From Pavlovales sp. CCMP2436 (Eukaryota > Haptophyta > Pavlovophyceae > Pavlovales), in contig MU631393.1 in assembly GCA_026770615.1 (NCBI GenBank), positions 25,239 to 41,000 of the forward strand: a DNA stretch of 15,762 bases. Direction: 5' to 3'. The translations under genes were made by a program, and so were the position numbers. The notes beneath the pieces were generated by a model that made no database searches, was not told the DNA's origin, and was given only the letters and a program-made list of their open reading frames with translations. Shown here piece by piece: positions 2,989 to 15,762 of this stretch. Each line of letters starts with the position of its first letter. Positions within the stretch are counted from its first letter, which is position 1.

Positions 2989-3340
2989 TGTATCAGTAAT
3001 ATATTACTGATAGGGACTCAAGCTTTAGTTGGAGCCCCTTCTGACTGTCCTGTAGTTCTGCTGACAGTCTGAGCGCGGCGTCGCCTATTGCCTGCTGTGT
3101 GTAGGCCTTAGTCGGTATCATCATACATTACGAATATTTGCATCCACTGCAGATATCATGAAAGCCACCTCCCTCAACGCCTAGCCACCTCCCTGTCCAC
3201 ATTGGCCTGTAACTAACCGTATATATGGTGTCTTTCGACGAATCTCTATCGGACCCGTGTTTTTTGCGAGATGCAATGTCGGACTGTTCCGTATGATCTA
3301 CGGGAATTGTTTTAAGCGCCTTTTAAGAGCGCTAAGTTTG

Positions 3341-3350
3341 GGCTATAAAT
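3341..3350 (+). promoter_or_regulatory. TATA box upstream of the hydrolase fragment
   Basis: GGCTATAAAT followed by AGACGG, 90 bases before the ATG at 3440. The identical decamer lies 33 bases before the viral-type membrane protein gene at 11969. Strong TATA match; the transcription start is inferred. Confidence 0.55.
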
Positions 3351-3439
3351 AGACGGATTGGCAGTTGGTGCGGTTGGTTTAAGCGTGTTTGAGGCCCGCC
3401 CAAACAAATAACGAATGAAGTTTCGGGGGGTATGCGCAC

Positions 3440-3895
3440 ATGGGTCTCAAGCACATCCTGCAAGTGGAGTGCCCTGCGCTCTGCGAGCAATTCCACGCAC
3501 TGCCCTGGGCGGCGCATCCCCTCATCCAGAGTACGCTATTGTATGCAGCGCTGCACGTAGTGGAGGGCGAGGTGAGTGTGCGACGAGAGACCATCCCATC
3601 AGGCGACGGAGGCACGCTGGCTCTGGACTGGATGGAGCGCGAGGGAGCGCCACCGTCGGGAAACGGAGCTCCGATACTGCTGCACTTCCCAGGCCTCAGT
3701 AACTGCATGCCCACCATTGGATTCGGAGCGATGGTTGTCGGCGCCATGCAAGAGCACTGCCTCCACTACAACCTTCCCGCGCGCGCGGCCAGTGTCATCT
3801 ACCCTGGATTCGCTGGACACACCCTTGACTCCCACAAGCTGCCCGGGCTCGCGCAGAAGTGCTGCAAGCCTGCCCCGAGAAAGGAGAGGGCGTAG
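3440..3895 (+). pseudogene. Alpha/beta hydrolase (ABHD1/2/3, YheT-like), N-terminal fragment
   Basis: Residues about 20-130 read like the N-terminal half of this serine-hydrolase family. They include a segment around HPLIQSTLLYAALHV, the signature GDGGTLALDW at about 55-64, then ILLHFPGLSN where the family has its first core strand and oxyanion loop (usually LLLHGL). YPGFAGHTLDSHKLPG follows where the family has NYRGxxGxxLxSxKLxG. Homology stops there, near 3845, and the frame ends at 3895 after unrelated basic residues. The nucleophile elbow GxSxG and the catalytic Asp and His, expected in the missing ~200 residues, are absent. The 151-residue product should be catalytically dead. The ATG at 3440 gives the family-like frame; another ATG at 3415 opens a different, unconvincing frame. 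An AG/GTGAGT donor-like site at about 3569 lies inside well-matching sequence, so I do not call an intron there. Confidence 0.6.
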
Positions 3896-4479: not shown

Positions 4480-6169
4480 TTAAAGAAGATGCAGGCCGGA
4501 CTCCTGGCGACCAGGCTTGGAGAGCCAGGCAGTCCAGATGACCGACATGGGCGAGCTCAGGGAGAAAATGTTCTCCCCGAGGTCGAGCGTGGTCAGCGAC
4601 CCGTTGACCTCGAGCGCCTTGCCGAGGCCGAGCGCGCCCGCGTCGCGGATCTGGCTGTCCCTGAGATTGAGCGTGGTCAGCGACGCGTTGACCTCGAGCG
4701 CCTTGGCGAGGCCGAGCGCGCCCACGTCCCCGATCTTGTTCCGCTTGAGGTCGAGGATGTTCAGCGCCTTGCTCGACGAGAGGAAGGTGCACACGAGCAT
4801 GGCGCCCTTGTCGCCGATCTCCACGTGTGGCAGCAGCACCTCCACGACCGAGCTCGGCAGCGAGCGCACGAGCGTGTGCGCGTGGACCTCACCGATCGCG
4901 CTCGTCAGCGACAGCCGCGGAAGCGCAGAGCGTCCGAGCGCCTCGAAGCCCGCGGCCACCAGCGCCGCACCGTTTTCCACCTTGACGACTGCCTTGAGCG
5001 CGGCCACAAAGTATCGAGCGCGCACCGTCGCGTCGAGCAGCTCGGCACCGAGCAGCTCGGCACCGAGCAGCTTGACACCGAGCAGCTTGGCACCGAGCAG
5101 CTTGGCACCGAGCAGCTTGGCACCGAGCAGCTTGGCACCGAGCAGCTTGGCACCGGCTGCCTGCCGCTGCACGTCCTGCCGCTGCACGTACTGCAAGATA
5201 TTGTCGCGGTCGAGCTGCACGGCCGCCTTGGTGTCCGCGAGCGCAAATTTGAGGGCGCGCTCGATGATGGCGAACGGGAATTCCCCGTCGCGACGCGCCT
5301 TCCATGACGCATCGTTTTTGTCAGCCGCGATGAGCCCTCGGTGAGCCGCTGCACCTCGCCCTCGTGGTGCGTGTAGATGTCTGTCAGGTAGCCCGCCCCG
5401 CCCTCGACCATCGCCAGGTTCATCTCGAGCGCGCACCACGACCGGTCGAGCACGCCCTCGCCCTCCGCCGCGACGATGATGAGCGTCATGGCCGTGGCCT
5501 TGAGCGCCTTGAAGAAGGGCGAGTCCTTGATCGCGCCGAGCTCGACGGCGTGCTGCCGGATCGCGAAGGCGCAGATCCAGATCGGCTCGTCCTCGCCGTA
5601 GCCGCGGTCCTCGGCGTGCTGCACGAGCGCCTCGTACGTCTGCAGCAGCGAGTGCGACCACGCGTGCGAGAGGAACACCTTGGGCTTGCGCTCCTGCCCG
5701 CACGCGAAGAGCTCCGAGAACGAGATGCCGAGCTCGGCGCCGAGCCGCGCGAGAGGTTCACGTCGTACAGGTTGACCTCCTCGGGCTTGAGGCCTCGCAC
5801 TTCGAGCCACGCGCCGGCCGACCAGCGCCGCCCGACCCACGACCGCGAGTGCTGCTTGACGTGCTTGACGAGCAGGCCGAGCTCGCGCAGGTTGGTCGCG
5901 CGGTGCTCGGCGCCCTCGACGCGCACCGGCTGCTCTCGCGCCACCTCGGCGGCAAACGCCCGGGCCGCCGCCCTCGCCGCGACGTCGTCGTCGTGGGGCA
6001 GCGCCAAGTCGCCCGTCAACACCACCGGAGCGAACTCGCCGAGCGCCGGCTCCTCGCGCGCCGCATGCCGCAGGCCGACGGGCGCCGCCACGTGGTCGAG
6101 CTTGATGTGCACGTCGTCCGCGCCAACGCCCTTGTCGGCCTCATTCACCGCACTCTGGCAGGCCCCCAT
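4480..6169 (-). pseudogene. TIR-like (SHxW) / pentapeptide / LRR protein, N-myristoylation-type start, two frameshifts
   Basis: The chosen start at 6169 gives MGACQSA, a myristoylation signal (Gly2, small residue at 6) with an adjacent Cys suited to palmitoylation. An upstream in-frame ATG at 6214 would hide it. In order: ~130 variable residues ending LKPEEVNLYDVN; a TIR-like domain with KVFLSHAWSHS, PIWICAFAIRQH and LDRSWCALEMNLAM, the algal SHWWG-type sensor fold; a linker; eight pentapeptide units of AKLLG type (5032-5154); ribonuclease-inhibitor-type LRRs of 28 residues (LDLKRNKIGD, LNLRDSQIRD, LDLGENIFS); and a C-terminal AWLSKPGRQESGL typical of such proteins. The frame changes near 5745-5755 (before LARLGAELG) and near 5336-5342 (after QRLTEG). 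These are real indels, recoding sites or unmodelled introns. The expected full length is ~560 residues. Inferred role: membrane-associated sensor or signalling protein; ligand unknown. Confidence 0.7.
5032..5154 (-). repeat. 15-bp tandem repeat encoding pentapeptide units
   Basis: Seven full 15-bp units (CTTGGCACCGAGCAG on the + strand, with three early units varying at one or two bases) plus partial units at both ends. On the minus strand they encode AKLLG/VKLLG/AELLG, compatible with the A(D/N)Lxx pentapeptide beta-helix rule. The units nearest 5154 are identical, implying recent expansion. Confidence 0.85.
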
Positions 6170-6265
6170 GACCAAGCGGCAAGCGAGCGATTCAGTGAAA
6201 GGACCAAGCGTCACGCGAGCGATTCGTGAACGTCACTTTCACTGAATCGCCGGGCCTGCCAGAGT
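6152..6265. repeat. Split inverted repeat spanning the LRR start codon
   Basis: ACTCTGGCAGGCCC (6152-6165) pairs with GGGCCTGCCAGAGT (6252-6265), and GCGATTCAGTGAAAG (6187-6201) pairs with CTTTCACTGAATCGC (6236-6250). Both stems are perfect. The outer one includes codons 2-6 of the LRR gene and the inner one its 5' leader. It is a possible 5'-UTR hairpin on the minus transcript or a small foldback insertion. Confidence 0.75.
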
Positions 6266-7464: not shown

Positions 7465-8204
7465 CTACACGACTCGCACCGCTTTGCCTGCTGATATCAA
7501 TCGATTCACATGGCCAGCGCGGAATTGAGGCATTTGGCTACTGTTTAATAGGGCACTAGCTGCATACGGACGGGATAGAGACGCATACTGATCGATCAAA
7601 CGATGTATACCAGAATCGTACAAGCCGTTGCGCCCGCCCCTGCCATAGCCGTCCAACGCCGTGTCGCCGACGGCTGTGGCGTACGCAATGAGCGAGCCTC
7701 CATCGCGCATATCCGGCGGGATCATGGTCGCGAGGCCATCTGCGAGGTCTTTGGTCGATCGCGCCAATCCCGCGTACGAGCGGCACGCGTCGAGACTGAC
7801 GATGTTGAAGCCACTGCCGCGCGCCCGCATGCCGTCGAGGACCTCCTGCGCGTCGATGGCCCTGCGTCGGAGCGACGTGTCGACCGTGCCGCATGCCCAG
7901 TCACGTGGGATGAGATAGTTGCGGTTCTGGTACTCGCAGCCGTGGCCCGTGAAGTATAAACGACCACAGTGCCCGGCTTGAGCCACTCTTGGAAGATGGC
8001 GATGGCATTCTCGAACACATCGAGGCTGCAGTCCGTCTCGATGAGCGTGCGGAAGCCGAGGCGGCGGAGGGAGGTGGCCACGTCGGTCGCGTCGTTGACG
8101 CAGTTGCGCAGGGGGGAGCTGTTGTACGCATTTATGCCCACGAGGAGGGCTTCGCGCCGCTCACCAGGCAGGGCGCGCTGGAGCGCCGCCATGGAGAGGG
8201 CCAT
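7465..8204 (-). pseudogene. Caspase-like peptidase (family C14), one frameshift
   Basis: A cysteine protease of the caspase fold, closer to bacterial-type and orthocaspase-like members than to classical metacaspases (which usually read DSCHSG). From ATG 8204: EALLVGINAYNSSPLRNCVNDATDVA (shown here only as the LVGINxY ... NDA motif, residues 20-42), the LRRLGF segment, then KPGTVVVY. The frame changes at about 7955-7960. The second frame supplies YFTGHG with the catalytic His codon at 7942-7944, NYLIPRDW, SLDACRSY with the catalytic Cys codon at 7783-7785, then SLIAYATAVGDTAL and NGLYDSGIHRLI, the usual end of the p10-like part. The total is about 245 residues. Both catalytic residues are intact, so a single-base indel, recoding or a tiny intron separates it from a working enzyme. 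The gene may still be functional. The substrate is unknown; basic P1 specificity is usual for non-metazoan members. Confidence 0.75.
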
Positions 8205-8275
8205 CGTCGAGCCGGGGCGGTTCTCGCGGCTTTGCCTCTCGCTCGTGGGCTCGCTTACGGGAGCTGAGTCCGAGC

Positions 8276-8293
8276 TTCACGAAACTTCCAGAA
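8276..8293. promoter_or_regulatory. Perfect four-unit heat-shock element
   Basis: TTC-ac-GAA-ac-TTC-ca-GAA: four alternating inverted pentamer units with exact 2-base spacing, the canonical binding site of a heat-shock factor trimer. It lies 72 bases upstream of the ATG of the minus-strand caspase gene, with no TATA box between. All twelve consensus bases match. Confidence 0.65.
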
Positions 8294-8638
8294 AAACGGG
8301 TCTAGGGGCTTGCCAAATTTACACGCTGAAAAGCGATGGCGCTGGTTTACACGTTAGCTGTAAGCCAGCGGGACGGCGACTATGCGCCAGCCTACGCGAG
8401 GTGTCCAGATCACCAACGAGGGCCTCGTCGTCTCGGCTCGGCTTTCGTCGGCCGCGCCTCGCCACCACGAGCCGGTGCGCGGAACCCTCTTTTCGGGCTC
8501 GAGGCTACCTCGCTCACCGACGTGACGGCTGGCGGTGACGGCTCGCTGGCGGGAGAGGGGAGAGCTCGCTGGCGGAAAAGAGGTCAGGGGGGCACCCAAC
8601 GGTTTATTTTTATAATTGTTCAAGTGAAGCTAGCGGAG
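8294..8638. other. Intergenic, no gene supported
   Basis: The + frame starting at 8336 runs through the foldback element at 8639 and has Gly/Pro/Arg composition, so I do not accept it. The minus frame at 8354-8623 is similarly unconvincing. A TTTATTTTTATAATTG stretch at 8604-8619 is AT-rich and just outside the foldback. Confidence 0.4.
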
Positions 8639-8930
8639 ATTGGTGGGGATGGTGGGGTTGAAACATCCCCACCATCATCCCCACCATTCGGTCGCATACT
8701 GAGAGGCCTACTGCGGACCCCCCCAAAATGGTGGGTGAGATTTTTTTTTGATCAGGGAGTATGGCTACCAATAGCCAGCGGGACGGGATCGCCCGCGAAA
8801 TACTTTTTGGGCGGAAACATACACTGCCCACCATTTTGGGGGGGTCCGCAGTAGGCCTCTCAGTATGCGACCGAATGGTGGGATTGATGGTGGGATCGAT
8901 TCAATCCCATTAATCCCACCAATCCCACCA
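8639..8930. mobile_element. Foldback (MITE-like) element 1
   Basis: 8680-8735 and 8827-8882 are perfect 56-base inverted repeats (both include seven-base C or G runs next to AAAATGGTGGG). Outside them the homology continues imperfectly to about 8639 and 8930 as CCCACC/GGTGGG-rich arms, each of which can also fold on itself. The central 91 bases (8736-8826) have no ORF. The TTAATTAATAAATTA flank on the right is AT-rich, a typical target. The ends are approximate. Confidence 0.75.
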
Positions 8931-9026
8931 TTTTTTAATTAATAAATTATGATTATAATAAAACACCGGCCGAAACGGTCCGGGGCGGCGAATCCGCAAT
9001 GGGCGTACTGGCGGGTAAATCAGCTA

Positions 9027-9433: not shown

Positions 9434-9787
9434 GTTTGTATCTAAAGACCCGATTATGATGATTCATACGAGAATTCATACGAGCATTGTTTAAGCAATG
9501 TTTGTATGGGGGGAGTGGTGGGAGGTGGGAGTTGTCAGACAAACCTCTCCGGGGACGTGAAAGCCGCGTGTCTCACCTGTCTCGTCTCTATTAATAATTT
9601 TTTTTTTTTTTTTTTTTTTTATGAACAGAGTAAGGGAATAGCCCTACTTTGGCACCATGTCCCCCTCCCCGGAGAGGTTTGCCTGACAACTCCCACCTCC
9701 CACCACTCCCCCCATACAAACAATGCTTAAACAATGTTCGTATGAATTCTCGTATGAATCATCAGAATCGGCCTTTAGATACAAACA
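9434..9787. mobile_element. Foldback (MITE-like) element 2, poly-T loop
   Basis: The left arm 9434-9555 and right arm 9666-9787 are ~122-base inverted repeats with only a handful of mismatches. Shared blocks include GTTTGTATCTAAAG, GATTCATACGAGAATTCATA, GTATGGGGGGAGTGGTGGGA and AAACCTCTCCGGGGA. The ~110-base loop carries a 23-T run (9598-9620). No ORF is found. Each arm also contains a small internal stem (ATTGTTTAAGCAAT). It is unrelated in sequence to foldback element 1 apart from GGTGGG motifs. Confidence 0.8.
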
Positions 9788-9965: not shown

Positions 9966-11723
9966 CTACTCGTCCTCCACGCGCGCAAAGCCGTACCACA
10001 GCTTGCACTTGGAGCGGCCCTCCACCATGTGCGGCAGGCAGCCGAGCCCGCCGTTGAAGCGCTGCTTGAGGAAGCACCCGAGGCTCTTGGGGTTCTTCCA
10101 CTGCAGGCCCTCGGTACCCGCGGCCAGTTTCATCTCGTTAAACAACTCAGTAGCGGTCCGGCCCTCCTTATCGGCGCACTTGTCCACCCGCCAGTACGCG
10201 TCGAAGGCCCCGGCCGGCGTGGTGGAGGCGCACTCCGCCGCGTACTCGTGCTTGCCGTCGTAGAGCGGGTCGAGCGCCGCGTACTGCCCCTTGCGCGCGC
10301 GGTAGTGGGCGTAGAGCGCGGCGACGAGCGCCGCCCGGTAGCGGGGGTCCGTCTCGAAGAGCGCCTGCACGTACTGCTCGTTCTCGAACGCCGCGTAGAC
10401 CTTGACGTGCGCCTTCTGGCCGTAGGCGGCCCGGGCCTGGTCGGGCGTGCGCACAAACTTGGACGGCATGCGCATCGCGAGGAGGCGGTCGGCGAGCGCC
10501 CCGTCGAACGGCTTGAAGTCGAGGCGGCTGTTGGTCAGCAGCACCACGAGCCCGCGGAACTTGGTCTCGACCTCGTGCGCGTACTTTTTGGAGCAGCTGA
10601 TCGAGACGCCGTTGCCGCCGCTCAGCTCCTTGTAGGCGTTGCCGTCCAGCAGGCCGTCGACCTCCTCGGTGACGACGACGGCGGCGCGGGCGGCGCGCTC
10701 CCACGACTCGTTGTTGCCGCTGAGCCCCCGCTTGCCCACGACCAGGGCCTCCGCCTTGACCACGAGCGCCGGGGCGACCAGGCGCAGGAGCGCGAAGAAG
10801 AGCAACTTGCCCTCGGTGCCGGCGCCGTTGAGCACGATGAACTCGCGGCACTTGTGCTCGCGCTCGAAGAAGGCGGGGGCGACGCGGTCGAGCACGGTGT
10901 CCCGCAGGGGGCCGAAGATGGCCTGCAGCAGGGCCACCACGTCCCGGGCGATGCACTGCAGCTCGGTCTCGCCGGCGCCGGGTGGTTCGAAGCGCGAGCG
11001 CAGCGCCACGTGGCGCGCGTTGACCGCGTAGGTGGGCGGCATCCACGCGCACGGGGGCTTGCCGGGGGCCGACTCGGCCAGGTAGTGCCCGGTCCAGTGG
11101 AGCAGCGCCGCGTGCGCGCCCGGCGCCGGGATCGGCCAGTGGAGCACCGCGTCGTCCCACACGCGCTGCTCGTGCGCGATGGCCGTGTGCGCACCGGTCT
11201 CGAGGTCGAGCATCTGCCCGTGCGCAAAGGGCAGCAGGTGCGGGGGGTGGCGCATCATGTAGCCGTCGGCAAAGTCGGCGCGCGACACCTTCACGCCGGG
11301 GTGCTTGGAGGCGTAGTCGGCGAGCTCGTCGTAGAGGCGCACGCAGCGGGGGTTGAGGCCCAGCTGCCCGTCGAGGGCGTTGGCGTACTCCTTGAAGGCG
11401 TATTTGTCCCGGCTCCAGGTGTGGTCGGCGATGTCGCGCACCAACAGGATGCGCTTCTCGTCGACGACCATCCAGGGCTGGCCGGAGAAGCGTTCGATGA
11501 TCAGGTCGACGATGTCGCACACCTTGGTCGGGCGCGGGTGCTCGTCCTCGGCGAAGAGGACGTCGGCGGTCAGGGCCTCGTCCACGGACTCGCAGTACTC
11601 GTCGTTGTCCGCGTCGAAGGGCAGCTCGAACGGCTTGACGCGCGCCACGAGCGCGATGCCGAGCGCCGCCTCGACCGCCGCGCTGGCCGCGAGGGCGATG
11701 GCCGGGAGGTCGAGCGCGCGCAT
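9966..11723 (-). CDS. SF3 (D5-type) helicase paralog, lacking the polymerase-like N-terminus, Walker A altered
   Basis: 585 residues, collinear with the C-terminal part of the gene at the right edge (from its residue 256) and largely identical to it. Preserved: TEEVDGLLDG (Walker B), SGGNGVSISCSKKYAHE, LVVLLTNSRLDF (motif C Asn), LADRLL (Arg finger region), AGAFDAYWRVD and the terminal GFARVEDE. Walker A reads GAGTEGKL: Lys306 stays but the Mg-coordinating Ser/Thr is Leu307 (codon TTG at 10803-10805), so ATPase activity should be impaired. The start ATG corresponds to an internal Met of the long paralog. Homology to the paralog extends ~40 bases upstream (GLGRI) but in another frame, across an apparent 11-base deletion. 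The gene is thus a 5'-truncated duplicate whose remaining frame is still open, perhaps kept as an accessory or regulatory form. Confidence 0.75.
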   Translation of the reverse strand: MRALDLPAIALAASAAVEAALGIALVARVKPFELPFDADNDEYCESVDEALTADVLFAEDEHPRPTKVCDIVDLIIERFSGQPWMVVDEKRILLVRDIADHTWSRDKYAFKEYANALDGQLGLNPRCVRLYDELADYASKHPGVKVSRADFADGYMMRHPPHLLPFAHGQMLDLETGAHTAIAHEQRVWDDAVLHWPIPAPGAHAALLHWTGHYLAESAPGKPPCAWMPPTYAVNARHVALRSRFEPPGAGETELQCIARDVVALLQAIFGPLRDTVLDRVAPAFFEREHKCREFIVLNGAGTEGKLLFFALLRLVAPALVVKAEALVVGKRGLSGNNESWERAARAAVVVTEEVDGLLDGNAYKELSGGNGVSISCSKKYAHEVETKFRGLVVLLTNSRLDFKPFDGALADRLLAMRMPSKFVRTPDQARAAYGQKAHVKVYAAFENEQYVQALFETDPRYRAALVAALYAHYRARKGQYAALDPLYDGKHEYAAECASTTPAGAFDAYWRVDKCADKEGRTATELFNEMKLAAGTEGLQWKNPKSLGCFLKQRFNGGLGCLPHMVEGRSKCKLWYGFARVEDE

Positions 11724-11928
11724 GACGCAGCACCTCGTCCTCGCGGGCGATGCGCCCGAGCCCGAGACAGCATGAAGGCCCTCGCATGAAGGCCCTCGCC
11801 CCTGCAGCCGCCGGCCAGCCCGAACTGAATAGAACTGAATGGGCTAAAGCTCGCTTTTTTTTAGCATGGGCCCAACTAGAGCGCCTCGGACAGGCAGCCA
11901 CAGATGCGCCAAGCTAGGCGCGAGCTGG
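11724..11928. other. Divergent intergenic: remnant of lost helicase 5' part and a 14-bp duplication
   Basis: 11724-11765 on the minus strand still encodes LGLGRI followed by six or so residues aligned to LCVGRIYDD of the long paralog, in a frame offset from the current gene. Next to it, CATGAAGGCCCTCG occurs twice in tandem (11771-11784 and 11785-11798), at the edge of the homology. The rest is the shared upstream region of two divergent genes. Confidence 0.55.
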
Positions 11929-11937: not shown

Positions 11938-11968
11938 CGCAGACTTTTTACACGAGTCAGATAGTCAG

Positions 11969-12361
11969 ATGCGCTTCGATGACGACCCGCACGACCTGCT
12001 CGGGCGCATCGGCCCTCTAGCGGTGATAGATACGGTCGGCACGCTGGCGATCGCCGCGCTCGCCGCATCGGCCGCGCGCTGGCCGCTGGTGCCGACCGTG
12101 GCCGCCGCGCTGGTGCTCGGCGAGGCCGCGCACCTGGCCCTGGGGGTCGACACCCCTGTCACCCTCGCGCTAAGCAGCGCTGGCGCCCTAGCCGCGCGGC
12201 GTGTCGCTCGCGCGCCTTCCCAAAATCAAGCAAAAAAGGGGGCGAGAAGGGGCCGCCCACCCGTTCCTTGCAGTGGCGACCCCGATACGGCGCTGGCCAA
12301 GGTGTCGCCGTATCATTTTAACGAGAGTCCGAGGCATGCGACATACTATGAGGCCGCCTAG
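11969..12361 (+). CDS. 130-residue membrane protein, algal giant-virus type
   Basis: From ATG 11969: a charged head (RFDDDPHDLLGRIG), a first hydrophobic helix at ~15-36 (LAVIDTVGTLAIAALAAS), a second at ~40-58 ending LVLGEAAHLALGV, then DTPVTLALSS and a basic, soluble tail. The order G-x-A/I-x-D-T-x3-I-x-A, then LGE-x2-H-x3-GV-x-T, resembles a small two-helix membrane protein I associate with algal giant viruses and related elements, where the second motif reads like a HxxFxVxT segment. That match is from memory. It is divergent from the truncated helicase and has its own TATA box. The frame is intact. Role unknown; likely a virion or host-membrane component. Confidence 0.6.
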   Translation: MRFDDDPHDLLGRIGPLAVIDTVGTLAIAALAASAARWPLVPTVAAALVLGEAAHLALGVDTPVTLALSSAGALAARRVARAPSQNQAKKGARRGRPPVPCSGDPDTALAKVSPYHFNESPRHATYYEAA

Positions 12362-12375
12362 TATCCAGATCAACG

Positions 12376-12385
12376 CTCTATAAAT
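12376..12385 (+). promoter_or_regulatory. TATA box of the helical/Pro-Glu-repeat ORF
   Basis: CTCTATAAAT, 50 bases before the ATG at 12436 and 14 bases after the stop of the preceding + gene. It gives the two + genes separate promoters despite the tight spacing. Confidence 0.55.
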
Positions 12386-12435
12386 GATAGCCGCTGTTGT
12401 CCCATCACCACGAGTCTGGCACGCCCGCCATACTG

Positions 12436-12684
12436 ATGAGCTACTTGAATTACATTCGACTCGAAAATACCGAGCGCGCCAAGACCAGAACTCAAATCGA
12501 AATTATTTCGGTTGAAATTCAAAAGAAGCTCGCCGCTATCTGTGCTCGCTTCATCGAATCGGCGCATGACGCGGCGCTCAAACGTAAGCACACATTGCTC
12601 GCCCTCGAGGAGGCGACGCCCGCCCGTGAGCCCGCCCGTGAGCCCGCCAGTGAGCCCGCCCGCGAGCCCGCCCGCGTCCCGTAG
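12436..12684 (+). CDS. Helical small protein with Pro-Ala-Arg-Glu repeats, ends at an in-frame amber codon
   Basis: 82 residues from the first ATG after the TATA box. Residues ~1-60 are charged and helix-forming (SYLNYIRLENTERAKTRTQ, then IQKKLAAICARFIESAHDAA), probably a coiled coil or amphipathic bundle. Residues ~63-82 are PARE/PASE repeats from a 12-bp tandem repeat (12614-12674). The TAG at 12682-12684 ends it, but the same frame stays open for 85 further codons with a compatible acidic composition. A minus-strand frame across this region (12370-12825) starts with a hydrophobic run; I consider it antisense because the TATA box and helical sequence are on +. Family unknown. Confidence 0.5.
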   Translation: MSYLNYIRLENTERAKTRTQIEIISVEIQKKLAAICARFIESAHDAALKRKHTLLALEEATPAREPAREPASEPAREPARVP

Positions 12685-12942
12685 ACGCGCGCGCACGTGG
12701 GCGCACACGAGGCCCACCAGCTCGACTGTGCCGAGGATCAAGTCGGCGAGCTGAACGCCGGCGAGCAGGACAACGAGGAGGAGGGCGGAGATAGCCTGGG
12801 CCAAGTGGAGGACAGCGAGACGCATCGTTCGTCCACAGCGTCAGAGCCACACGTCGTGCGCGAATCTTTTAAAGGTTCTCGTCCCACGTCTTGCAACGCG
12901 CCGCCTACTCGTGCGTCTGTAATTTCATTCGCATCCGACTAA
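12685..12942 (+). other. Same-frame continuation after the amber codon
   Basis: 85 sense codons then TAA, in the frame of the preceding ORF, without an ATG of its own. It reads as an acidic linker (EDQVGELNAGEQDNEEEGG) followed by Ser/Arg/Pro-rich residues ending SVISFASD. Either the upstream TAG is a recent nonsense mutation (one transition from CAG) or it is read through. T-rich runs follow the TAA (12947-12966). Confidence 0.4.
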
Positions 12943-13237: not shown

Positions 13238-15762
13238 CTACTCGTCGTCGACGCGGGCGAAGCCGTACCAATTCTTGGTGCGTGCGCGGCCCTCCATCAT
13301 CCGGGGCAAGCAGTCGAGCCCGCCGTTGAAGCGCTGCGACAAAAACCACCCGAAGCTTAACGAGTTCTTCCATTGCAGCTCGCCTGTGCCCGCAGCCATC
13401 TTCATCTCGTTAAACATCTCCTTAGCGGTCCGGCCCTCTTGGGCAGCTGAAGCATCCACCCTCCAGTACGCGTCGAATGCACCCGCAGGCGTGCTCGAGG
13501 AGCACTGTGCGCTGTACTCCTTTTTACCGTCGTAGCGGGCGTCGAGCTGCGCGTACTGCCCCTTGCGCTTGCGGTAGTGCGCGTACAAAGCTGCGACGAG
13601 TGCTGCAAGGTAGCGCGGGTCGGTGTCGAAAAGCCCTTGCATGTACTGCTCATCCTCGAATGCCGCGTAAACTTTGACATGCGCCTTCTGGCCGTACGCA
13701 GCCTTAGCTTGCTCGGCCGAGCGCACGAATTTGGACGGCATGCGCACGGCGATAATCCTGTCGGAGAGCGCCTCGTCAAACGGCTTGAAGTCGAGGCGGC
13801 TGTTCGTCAGCAGCACAACGAGCCCGCAGAAATTGGTTTCGATCTCGTGGCCGTACTTTTTCGAGCAGCAGATCGAGACACCGTTGCCTCCACTCAGGTC
13901 TTTGTAGGCGTTGCCGTCCAGGACGCCATCGACCTCCTCAGTGACGACGATCGCGGCCCCCTTTGCGCGCTCCCACGACTCGTTGTTGCCGCTGAGCCCC
14001 CGCCCACCTACGGCGAGTGCCTCCGCCTTGACGACGAGTGCCGGGGCGGCCTTCCGCAGTAGCGAGAAGAAAAGCGATTTGCCCTCGGCACCGGCGCCAT
14101 TCAGCACGATGAACTCGCGGCGCTTATGCTTGCGCTCAAAGAATGCAGCACAGACGCGGTCGAGCACGGTGTCGCGAATGGGCCCAAGGATGGTCTCGAT
14201 CAAAGAGCCTACGTCCTTTGCGATGCACTGCAGCACGGTCTCGCCCGCGCCAGGCGGGTCGAAGCACTTGCGTAGCTGCACATGGCTCGTGTTGATCGAG
14301 TAGGTCGGCGGCATCCATTTGCGCTCCTGGTCGCACATGTAGTGCCCGGCCCAATGTAGAAGCTCTTGGTATTCGTGCGGTTCAGGGATCGGCCATTGCA
14401 GCACCGCGCTGCTCCAGATGCGCTGCTCGGGCGAGATGGCCGCGCGCGAGCCCGACTCGAGGTTGAGCATCTGCCCGTGTGAGAAGGGCATCGAGTGCGG
14501 GCAGTAGTTCATCATGTAACCGCTGGCGAAGACCGTCCCCGGCACCGTCGAGGACGCATCCTTGGTGGCAAAGTCGGCAAGCTCGTCATAGAGCCGTGTA
14601 CTCCTGGGGTCGATGCCGAGCTTGCCTTCGATGGCCTTGGCGTACTCCTTGAAGGCGTACCTGTCCTTGCTCCATGTACCGTCGGTCATGTCGCGCACCA
14701 CGAGGACGCGCTCCTCGTCCGAAGGAGAGACGACAATCCACGGCTTGTCGTATTTCTGTGCGATCAGTGCGACAATAGCCGCGGGTTTTGTCGGGCGCGG
14801 GTGCTCGTCGTCCGCGAAGAGCGCGTCTGCTGCCATGGCTGCTTCCACGGTGTAGCAGCAGTCGCCAGTCGCAGGGTCGAGCGGCGGCTCAAACCGCTTG
14901 ACGCGCGCCACGAGCCCCAGGCCGAGCGTGTGCTTGACCGCCGCACTGGCCTCGATGGCGATCGCATTGAGGTCCAGCGGACGCATGTCGATGTCGTGCT
15001 TGAGCTGGTGCGTGTCGTCGTAGATGCGGCCGACGCAGAGCGAGCCCGCGCACTCAAAGGTCTCGACTACCACGGAGAGCGCGCAATCCTCAAGCGTGTC
15101 CACGGCTACACGGCGCACTTCTTCTATGGAGGCGCACTCGCCGAGGACCGCGCGGATCGGCGCGGAGAGCTCGCTCGCAAAGAGGGCACGGTCGATCGAG
15201 CGCATCTCCGAGCGCAGCGCGTGCATATTGCTGTGCCACTTGTCCATCTCCTGCGAGTAGCCGTTCATCACCTTTGAGATCATATCCTTGTGGCAGCAGG
15301 CGAGCTTGAGCCAGGCGTCACGGTCGTGCACGATTGCCTCGAGCTCAGGCGCCTCGATGCCCACGACCTGGGAGAGTGCCAAGCAGATCGTCGGCGCGCA
15401 CCGTTCGAAGTCAACGTCCTCAGCGGCCTCGTGGCAGAGCAGCGCGCGCAGTCCTCTCGGCGTGTGCTGTACCGAGGCGCCCGTTGCATAGAAGCGCCCG
15501 AGGCCGCGTTTGCGGTACCCGTGCGCGTAGTAGAAGCCGTTCGCGTCCCGCTCGGCACTCGACAGCATCTCGAGCAAGTGGAGGACGGGCGGCTTCTGCT
15601 TACGCGCGGCCTTCAGTATCTTGCGCAGCGCGAGTACGTCGACGTACTCGCGCTGCGTCTCGTTAGCAGGCGGCCTGTGCGTCTGCAGCGCGCGCATGAT
15701 CTTGGCGCGGTCGTGTCCGCCATCAGTACGGACGCGCGCGTTCTTCTCCAATGCGTCGGAGG
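13238..15762 (-). CDS. Fusion of TV-Pol-like polymerase domain and SF3 helicase (Polinton-like virus type), 5' end open
   Basis: Reads leftward from the edge; the frame is open to 15762 with no ATG until 15697, so the start is there (819 residues) or outside. Numbering from codon 15751-15749: residues 75-125 hold YAHGYRKRGLGRFYATGASVQ and DVDFERCAPT (Asp112 and Asp114, motif A of the TV-Pol palm), KDMISKVMNGYS at 155-166 (motif B) and GRIYDDTHQL at 241-250 (motif C position). Then a connector, and the SF3 ATPase: GAGAEGKS with Lys558/Ser559, TEEVDG at 604-609, LLTN650 (motif C) and SDR665. The C-terminal AGAFDAYWRVD region and GFARVDDE are shared with the paralog. Role: synthesis plus unwinding in replication of a DNA virus or self-replicating element. 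The helicase part is certain; the polymerase assignment rests on three short motifs. Confidence 0.8.
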   Translation of the reverse strand, partial: SDALEKNARVRTDGGHDRAKIMRALQTHRPPANETQREYVDVLALRKILKAARKQKPPVLHLLEMLSSAERDANGFYYAHGYRKRGLGRFYATGASVQHTPRGLRALLCHEAAEDVDFERCAPTICLALSQVVGIEAPELEAIVHDRDAWLKLACCHKDMISKVMNGYSQEMDKWHSNMHALRSEMRSIDRALFASELSAPIRAVLGECASIEEVRRVAVDTLEDCALSVVVETFECAGSLCVGRIYDDTHQLKHDIDMRPLDLNAIAIEASAAVKHTLGLGLVARVKRFEPPLDPATGDCCYTVEAAMAADALFADDEHPRPTKPAAIVALIAQKYDKPWIVVSPSDEERVLVVRDMTDGTWSKDRYAFKEYAKAIEGKLGIDPRSTRLYDELADFATKDASSTVPGTVFASGYMMNYCPHSMPFSHGQMLNLESGSRAAISPEQRIWSSAVLQWPIPEPHEYQELLHWAGHYMCDQERKWMPPTYSINTSHVQLRKCFDPPGAGETVLQCIAKDVGSLIETILGPIRDTVLDRVCAAFFERKHKRREFIVLNGAGAEGKSLFFSLLRKAAPALVVKAEALAVGGRGLSGNNESWERAKGAAIVVTEEVDGVLDGNAYKDLSGGNGVSICCSKKYGHEIETNFCGLVVLLTNSRLDFKPFDEALSDRIIAVRMPSKFVRSAEQAKAAYGQKAHVKVYAAFEDEQYMQGLFDTDPRYLAALVAALYAHYRKRKGQYAQLDARYDGKKEYSAQCSSSTPAGAFDAYWRVDASAAQEGRTAKEMFNEMKMAAGTGELQWKNSLSFGWFLSQRFNGGLDCLPRMMEGRARTKNWYGFARVDDE

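Follow-up and report, generated by a model that had tools for sequence, protein, structure and literature searches.

A multicopy TV-Pol-like/SF3 helicase gene in the alga Pavlovales sp. CCMP2436, candidate replication protein of a mriyavirus-like element

To what kind of element does a long, intact helicase gene belong that lies between runs of N on a contig of the haptophyte alga Pavlovales sp. CCMP2436? The stretch of DNA analysed here (the window; 15,762 nucleotides, contig MU631393.1 of assembly GCA_026770615.1, positions 25,239 to 41,000 of the forward strand) contains on its minus strand, from 15760 to 13238, a frame of 840 stop-free codons, which is open at the right edge of the window. 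From the letters alone, this frame had been described (the original prediction) as a fusion of a TV-Pol-like polymerase domain and an SF3 helicase, as known from Polinton-like viruses, that had arrived recently or was actively maintained. The reading favoured here, for which the arguments on the two sides are about evenly balanced, is that the gene encodes the replication protein of an endogenous, multicopy mriyavirus-like element of the alga.

The fusion gene and its N-terminal domain

The fusion gene (copy 2; 13238-15760, minus strand, as are all its motifs given below) is uninterrupted over more than 800 codons, as the original prediction had it; when this stretch is resampled 1000 times under a first-order Markov model, the longest open run obtained by chance is 396 codons. 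It is considered a real gene because its GC content differs by codon position (0.63/0.44/0.82) and because the ratio of nonsynonymous to synonymous substitutions (dN/dS) amounts to 0.23-0.60 in comparisons with 18 other copies. In the closest copy (L025, 96% amino acid identity), the frame contains an ATG 13 residues upstream of the start of the window frame.

In the C-terminal half, the predicted helicase motifs are all present and in the expected order: Walker A GAGAEGKS (residues 555-562; 14075-14098), Walker B TEEVDG (607-612; 13925-13942), motif C LLTN (650-653; 13802-13813, within LLTNSR) and SDR (666-668; 13757-13765, within LSDRI, which begins at 665). Such a set is typical of SF3 helicases of the D5-like kind. 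A PHROG annotated as DNA primase, phrog_1156, is matched by residues 506-688 (E 1.7e-12); of four more PHROGs that the helicase part matches below 1e-4, three carry the label DNA primase and the fourth has no known function. Five close relatives (P0002-P0006) were found among 5.8 billion proteins, in a search in which scoring was in part limited to the candidates sharing most words. The phrog_1156 match is present in five of the resulting six family members (the window protein included), P0006 stopping before the helicase. Pfam is weak for this part, with DUF5906 in three of the six members (best E 1.2e-4).

The N-terminal region (residues 30-300, the modelled stretch; 14861-15673) has to be compared with the TV-Pol family. 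According to PMC2579912, these polymerases possess two conserved palm aspartates in motifs A and C, fingers with a conserved Asp and RxxxK, a beta-hairpin ahead of motif A whose invariant Arg contacts the template, and a fold with a two-helix thumb and an RRM-like palm; a subset is fused to a C-terminal D5-like helicase, a feature present in the window gene. The window protein contains, in the predicted order, DVDFERCAPT (residues 115-124; 15389-15418), which aligns as palm motif A with DIDQANAIPT of a sister TV-Pol of the same genome, the fingers segment KVMNGYS (163-169; 15254-15274), and RIYDDTH (245-251; 15008-15028) as palm motif C. Like the TV-Pol family, it thus has the palm aspartates in the order A, C followed by the D5-like SF3 part, and DVD at 115-117 is conserved in all five members covering that stretch and D248 in all six. 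Unlike that family, it lacks RxxxK in the fingers, and its motif C reads YDD, whereas all five database relatives have YDG or FDG. In place of RxxxK the family has KDMISK or KEMISK (KEMISM in P0006), the sister TV-Pol possessing RDAAK; in the window protein, K158 holds the place of the RxxxK lysine. The Arg four residues before the lysine is likewise missing in a protein of phage Ma-LMM01, the product of a 507-codon frame (MAP_030) that is likely this phage's TV-Pol. The region GRFYATG...PRGLRALL, before motif A, aligns partially with the sister TV-Pol, its model being of low confidence, and aligns in register, at a low score, with the Ma-LMM01 protein.

The N-terminal region is similar in sequence to the sister TV-Pol-type frame. 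The assignment of a TV-Pol-like domain joined to an SF3 helicase, as originally predicted, is supported by this comparison and weakly by structure. Pfam, PDB sequence and PHROG searches gave nothing significant for the N-terminus, and a Foldseek search of its model against the PDB gave no relevant match. The full-length AlphaFold model, built from six sequences, had a pLDDT of 38 and was not used. Scans of IMG/VR with the window gene, the sister TV-Pol and both Rep-like genes described below found no match, and tblastn against phages and plasmids none at E 0.01 and, at E 10, weak helicase matches in phages. The original prediction had named closest matches to primase-type D5 proteins, with no relation to polymerases, as the contrary result; this describes the helicase half, but not the N-terminus.

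Copies in the algal genome

In the genome (119 Mb, 703 contigs; algal-like, with 13 chlorophyll a/b-binding matches, as predicted), the window gene has at least 67 matches, which were grouped into 27 places, two distant matches on C38 and C12 being excluded. Among the matches listed, the window copy alone is open across the whole query. The selection comparison comprised 18 copies, namely a second copy in the window and 17 fetched ones, and left out L041 and the unfetched places. dN/dS relative to the window copy is below 1 in all 18, and dS is 0.036 for the closest copy (L025) and 0.19-0.59 for the other 17. According to these values, the gene was under purifying selection and one sublineage was copied recently, most copies having then decayed. 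The predicted recent arrival or active maintenance is partly supported by them.

The second window copy (9966-11724, minus strand) is truncated at its 5' end, matches residues 259-840 and is 68% identical to the window gene over 588 amino acid columns. Its Walker A reads GAGTEGKL, Ser being replaced by Leu, such that GKS is not kept. P0005, a protein from an MMETSP transcript, is 94% identical to it over 584 amino acids.

Broken host-type genes lie nearby, as had been stated: a leucine-rich repeat (LRR) gene in pieces (4480-6232), downstream of the TV-Pol gene and on the same strand, and a caspase/metacaspase domain (Peptidase_C14; 7465-8276) split over two frames. Frames related to this LRR gene are also present in L026, L030 and L032, where they are situated upstream of the copy and run in the direction opposite to that of the TV-Pol gene.

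Two palindromes are found in the window. One (8604-8958; arms of 132 nt, 80% complementary) is possibly a foldback element or an origin-like hairpin; its core recurs about 130-375 bp upstream of an HNH-like gene in eight loci (L025, L026, L027, L030, L032, L034, L036, L039), and apart from that gene in L033, L035 and L040. The other (9434-9786; arms of 106-122 nt, 95-96% complementary) is located just 3' of the truncated copy. Short repeat units (CGTCTCTTAGCATG...), iteron-like in an alignment judged by eye, are situated between the HNH-like and TV-Pol genes in several copies (in L034 at about 3340-3560). Distant TV-Pol matches in the same genome are C258:42370-43056 (25%, E 2.4e-4), which is convergent with a Rep-like Y gene, and C40:46473-46781 (31%, E 9.6e-4).

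Neighbouring genes of the sister copies

The extension of the contig to the right, proposed for a search for capsid, ATPase, protease and integrase genes, meets a run of N that starts at 41001 and reaches at least to 50500 (9.5 kb or more), and to the left of the window 10 kb are N. Gene order was compared in the sister copies. In 13 of the 18 fetched loci L025-L042, the gene ahead of the TV-Pol gene, in the same orientation, is an HNH-like one, with 36 matches genome-wide (two of the 13 are partial); it lies on the opposite strand in L019, and none is found in L013 or in the window. For the sister version there is a match to an HNH endonuclease PHROG (E 6e-6), for the version of the window family none.

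A gene Y, with the stretches FITLNTNR, LHAHVYL and HYLSKQ, follows downstream in convergent orientation in five of the 18 loci, and beyond it, in L025 and L040, a longer gene X (RLFHFHML, AYVKKQ). In L026, X is present without Y, and in L039 it lies upstream on the same strand. Alignment with hhalign relates X to Y (probability 88.5, E 2.7e-6); neither of them has a Pfam match or a noteworthy PDB match. HxH is present in all five Y copies and in two of the three X copies covering that stretch, and YxxK in all four X copies and two of the five Y copies, the other Y copies being cut, shifted or changed there. Following the definition of the HUH motif as HUH followed by Yx2-3K in PMC11253617 (cited here, like PMC4642659 and PMC3671162, from the available part of its text), X and Y are probably HUH-type Rep proteins. 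A reading of X as a possible capsid gene was dropped because X contains HFH and YVKK and is related to Y.

Y is situated less than 2 kb from the TV-Pol gene, and convergent to it, at five of the 27 places (0.028 expected), and a capsid match of the nucleocytoplasmic large DNA virus (NCLDV) type (PF04451) within 10 kb at two of them (C377 and C536; 0.046 expected), the scores of both being near the cut-off; the window's contig has none. A stretch of 8.6 kb on C377 contains the TV-Pol gene, Y, a frame of 300 codons (at a guess similar to single-stranded DNA-binding proteins; no Pfam match) and, beyond Y, the capsid match. Y and capsid occur within 10 kb on three contigs, and VLTF3 and capsid together on three; all three genes are found within 22 kb on C103, a contig with no match to the TV-Pol-SF3 gene. 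None of the 16 VLTF3 matches of the genome is within 25 kb of any of the 27 copies.

The fullest linked copy is L025, with the HNH-like gene, the TV-Pol-SF3 gene and then, on the opposite strand, the short and the long Rep-like gene with HUH motifs. Its stretch between TV-Pol and Rep-like genes is shared with a spacer in the window (11958-12840) containing two frames (12373-12840, minus; 11958-12360, plus) of uncertain coding strand. A further frame beside this copy (L025 1084-2379, minus strand) matches protein kinases (E 5.5e-8) and, weakly and below the cut-off, the N-terminal part of MLKL (E 7.7e-4).

Mriyaviruses, Polinton-like viruses and mobile elements

The layout of the sister copies is nearest to that of the proposed Gamadviridae, mriyaviruses of haptophytes, as far as these are described in the available text of PMC11253617. 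There, a position closest to the giant-virus ancestor is proposed for the mriyaviruses, which are said to lack a DNA polymerase. The Gamadviridae have capsid and VLTF3 of Nucleocytoviricota type, HUH_long and HUH as adjacent genes (10 and 11 in Pleurochrysis endemic virus 2, PEV2), and an SF3 helicase, sometimes frameshifted, whose N-terminal domain resembles no known one. The alga shares with them, by layout, an SF3 helicase with a long N-terminal part and two neighbouring HUH-motif proteins, a short and a long one, encoded on one strand, and it has NCLDV-type capsid and VLTF3 matches somewhere in the genome. It differs in the TV-Pol-like domain of the window family, the activity of which is predicted, and the window gene is shorter than the PEV2 gene for SF3_hel2 (about 4.6 kb). 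No paper found among the open-licence PMC papers joins mriyaviruses and TV-Pol.

Under the mriyavirus-like reading, the open reading frame would encode a primase/polymerase-helicase with a divergent, family A-related TV-Pol-like palm before the D5-like SF3 helicase. The HUH protein would nick one strand and so start rolling-circle-type replication, the SF3 hexamer would unwind the DNA, and the TV-Pol-like domain would prime or extend it. What is shown of this scheme are the sequence features and the linkage; the catalytic activity and the HUH chemistry are inferred. Several points weigh against this reading. The window copy is not tied to capsid or Rep genes because runs of N flank it, and its assignment to an element rests on the sister copies. 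The comparison of its N-terminus with MAP_030 gave a mixed result at a weak score, the sister TV-Pol used as reference was itself recognised by motifs, and PMC11253617 reports no structural match for the N-terminal domain of SF3_hel2, which speaks against a simple identity with TV-Pol.

Possible, if somewhat doubtful, is a stand-alone small mobile element of HNH-like nuclease and TV-Pol-SF3, a replicative transposon sensu Iyer et al. that often inserted beside mriyavirus-like proviruses. These two genes are the sole unit common to most fetched copies, homology drops at the stop codon, behind which 3' flanks of two or more kinds follow, an HNH-like gene, TV-Pol and SF3 occur in the sister element L044 with no Rep-like match in 8 kb, and 13 of the 19 Y places are on contigs without a TV-Pol-SF3 gene. 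However, all five close Y neighbours are convergent, as is Y with the distant TV-Pol match on C258; this constant layout is unlike random insertion, which would not fix the orientation. It is rather improbable that the gene served the replication of an integrated Polinton-like virus, as the original prediction implied. The fusion itself is not new, because Polinton-like viruses with TVpol-S3H are known (PMC4642659), and the gene shares it with PgVV-type Polinton-like viruses and Sputnik-type virophages (PMC4642659, PMC3671162). The genome is also rich in A32-like packaging ATPases (PF04665; at least 142 matches), which suggests a great number of Polinton-like or related proviruses, most of them at a distance from the TV-Pol-SF3 gene. 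Among the matches listed, however, a single ATPase (C392, 18 kb off) is within 20 kb of the 27 copies, where about 1.4 are expected, and the genes beside some sister copies are Rep-like with HUH motifs and the linked capsid matches of NCLDV type, capsids of Polinton-like viruses and virophages not having been searched for. A D5-type helicase whose N-terminus has no polymerase activity, being either a relic or an unrelated domain, has been proposed in the case of gamadvirus SF3_hel2 but appears very unlikely here. The missing RxxxK, the unusual YDD of the window copy, the many broken copies, the lack of a Pfam polymerase match and the weak score against the Ma-LMM01 protein would fit a relic, but no family member covering the palm aspartates has lost either of them, dN/dS indicates constraint throughout, and the N-terminus resembles the sister TV-Pol.

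If the mriyavirus-like reading holds, a further and clearly speculative step, which we consider unlikely, would be an algal mriyavirus-like lineage with its own TV-Pol primase-polymerase fused to SF3, beside HUH nickases, of which the gamadvirus SF3_hel2 N-terminus would be a decayed descendant. Two initiation chemistries would then exist in one replicon, and the described absence of a polymerase from mriyaviruses would not hold for some of them. The pairing of a priming polymerase with a rolling-circle nickase is of a kind called unseen outside mriyaviruses in the available text of PMC11253617. One algal genome offers a divergent family and a more canonical sister, in which intact and decaying copies can be compared, and a TV-Pol-like polymerase-helicase linked to HUH and capsid genes would show how such small viruses could make their own DNA.
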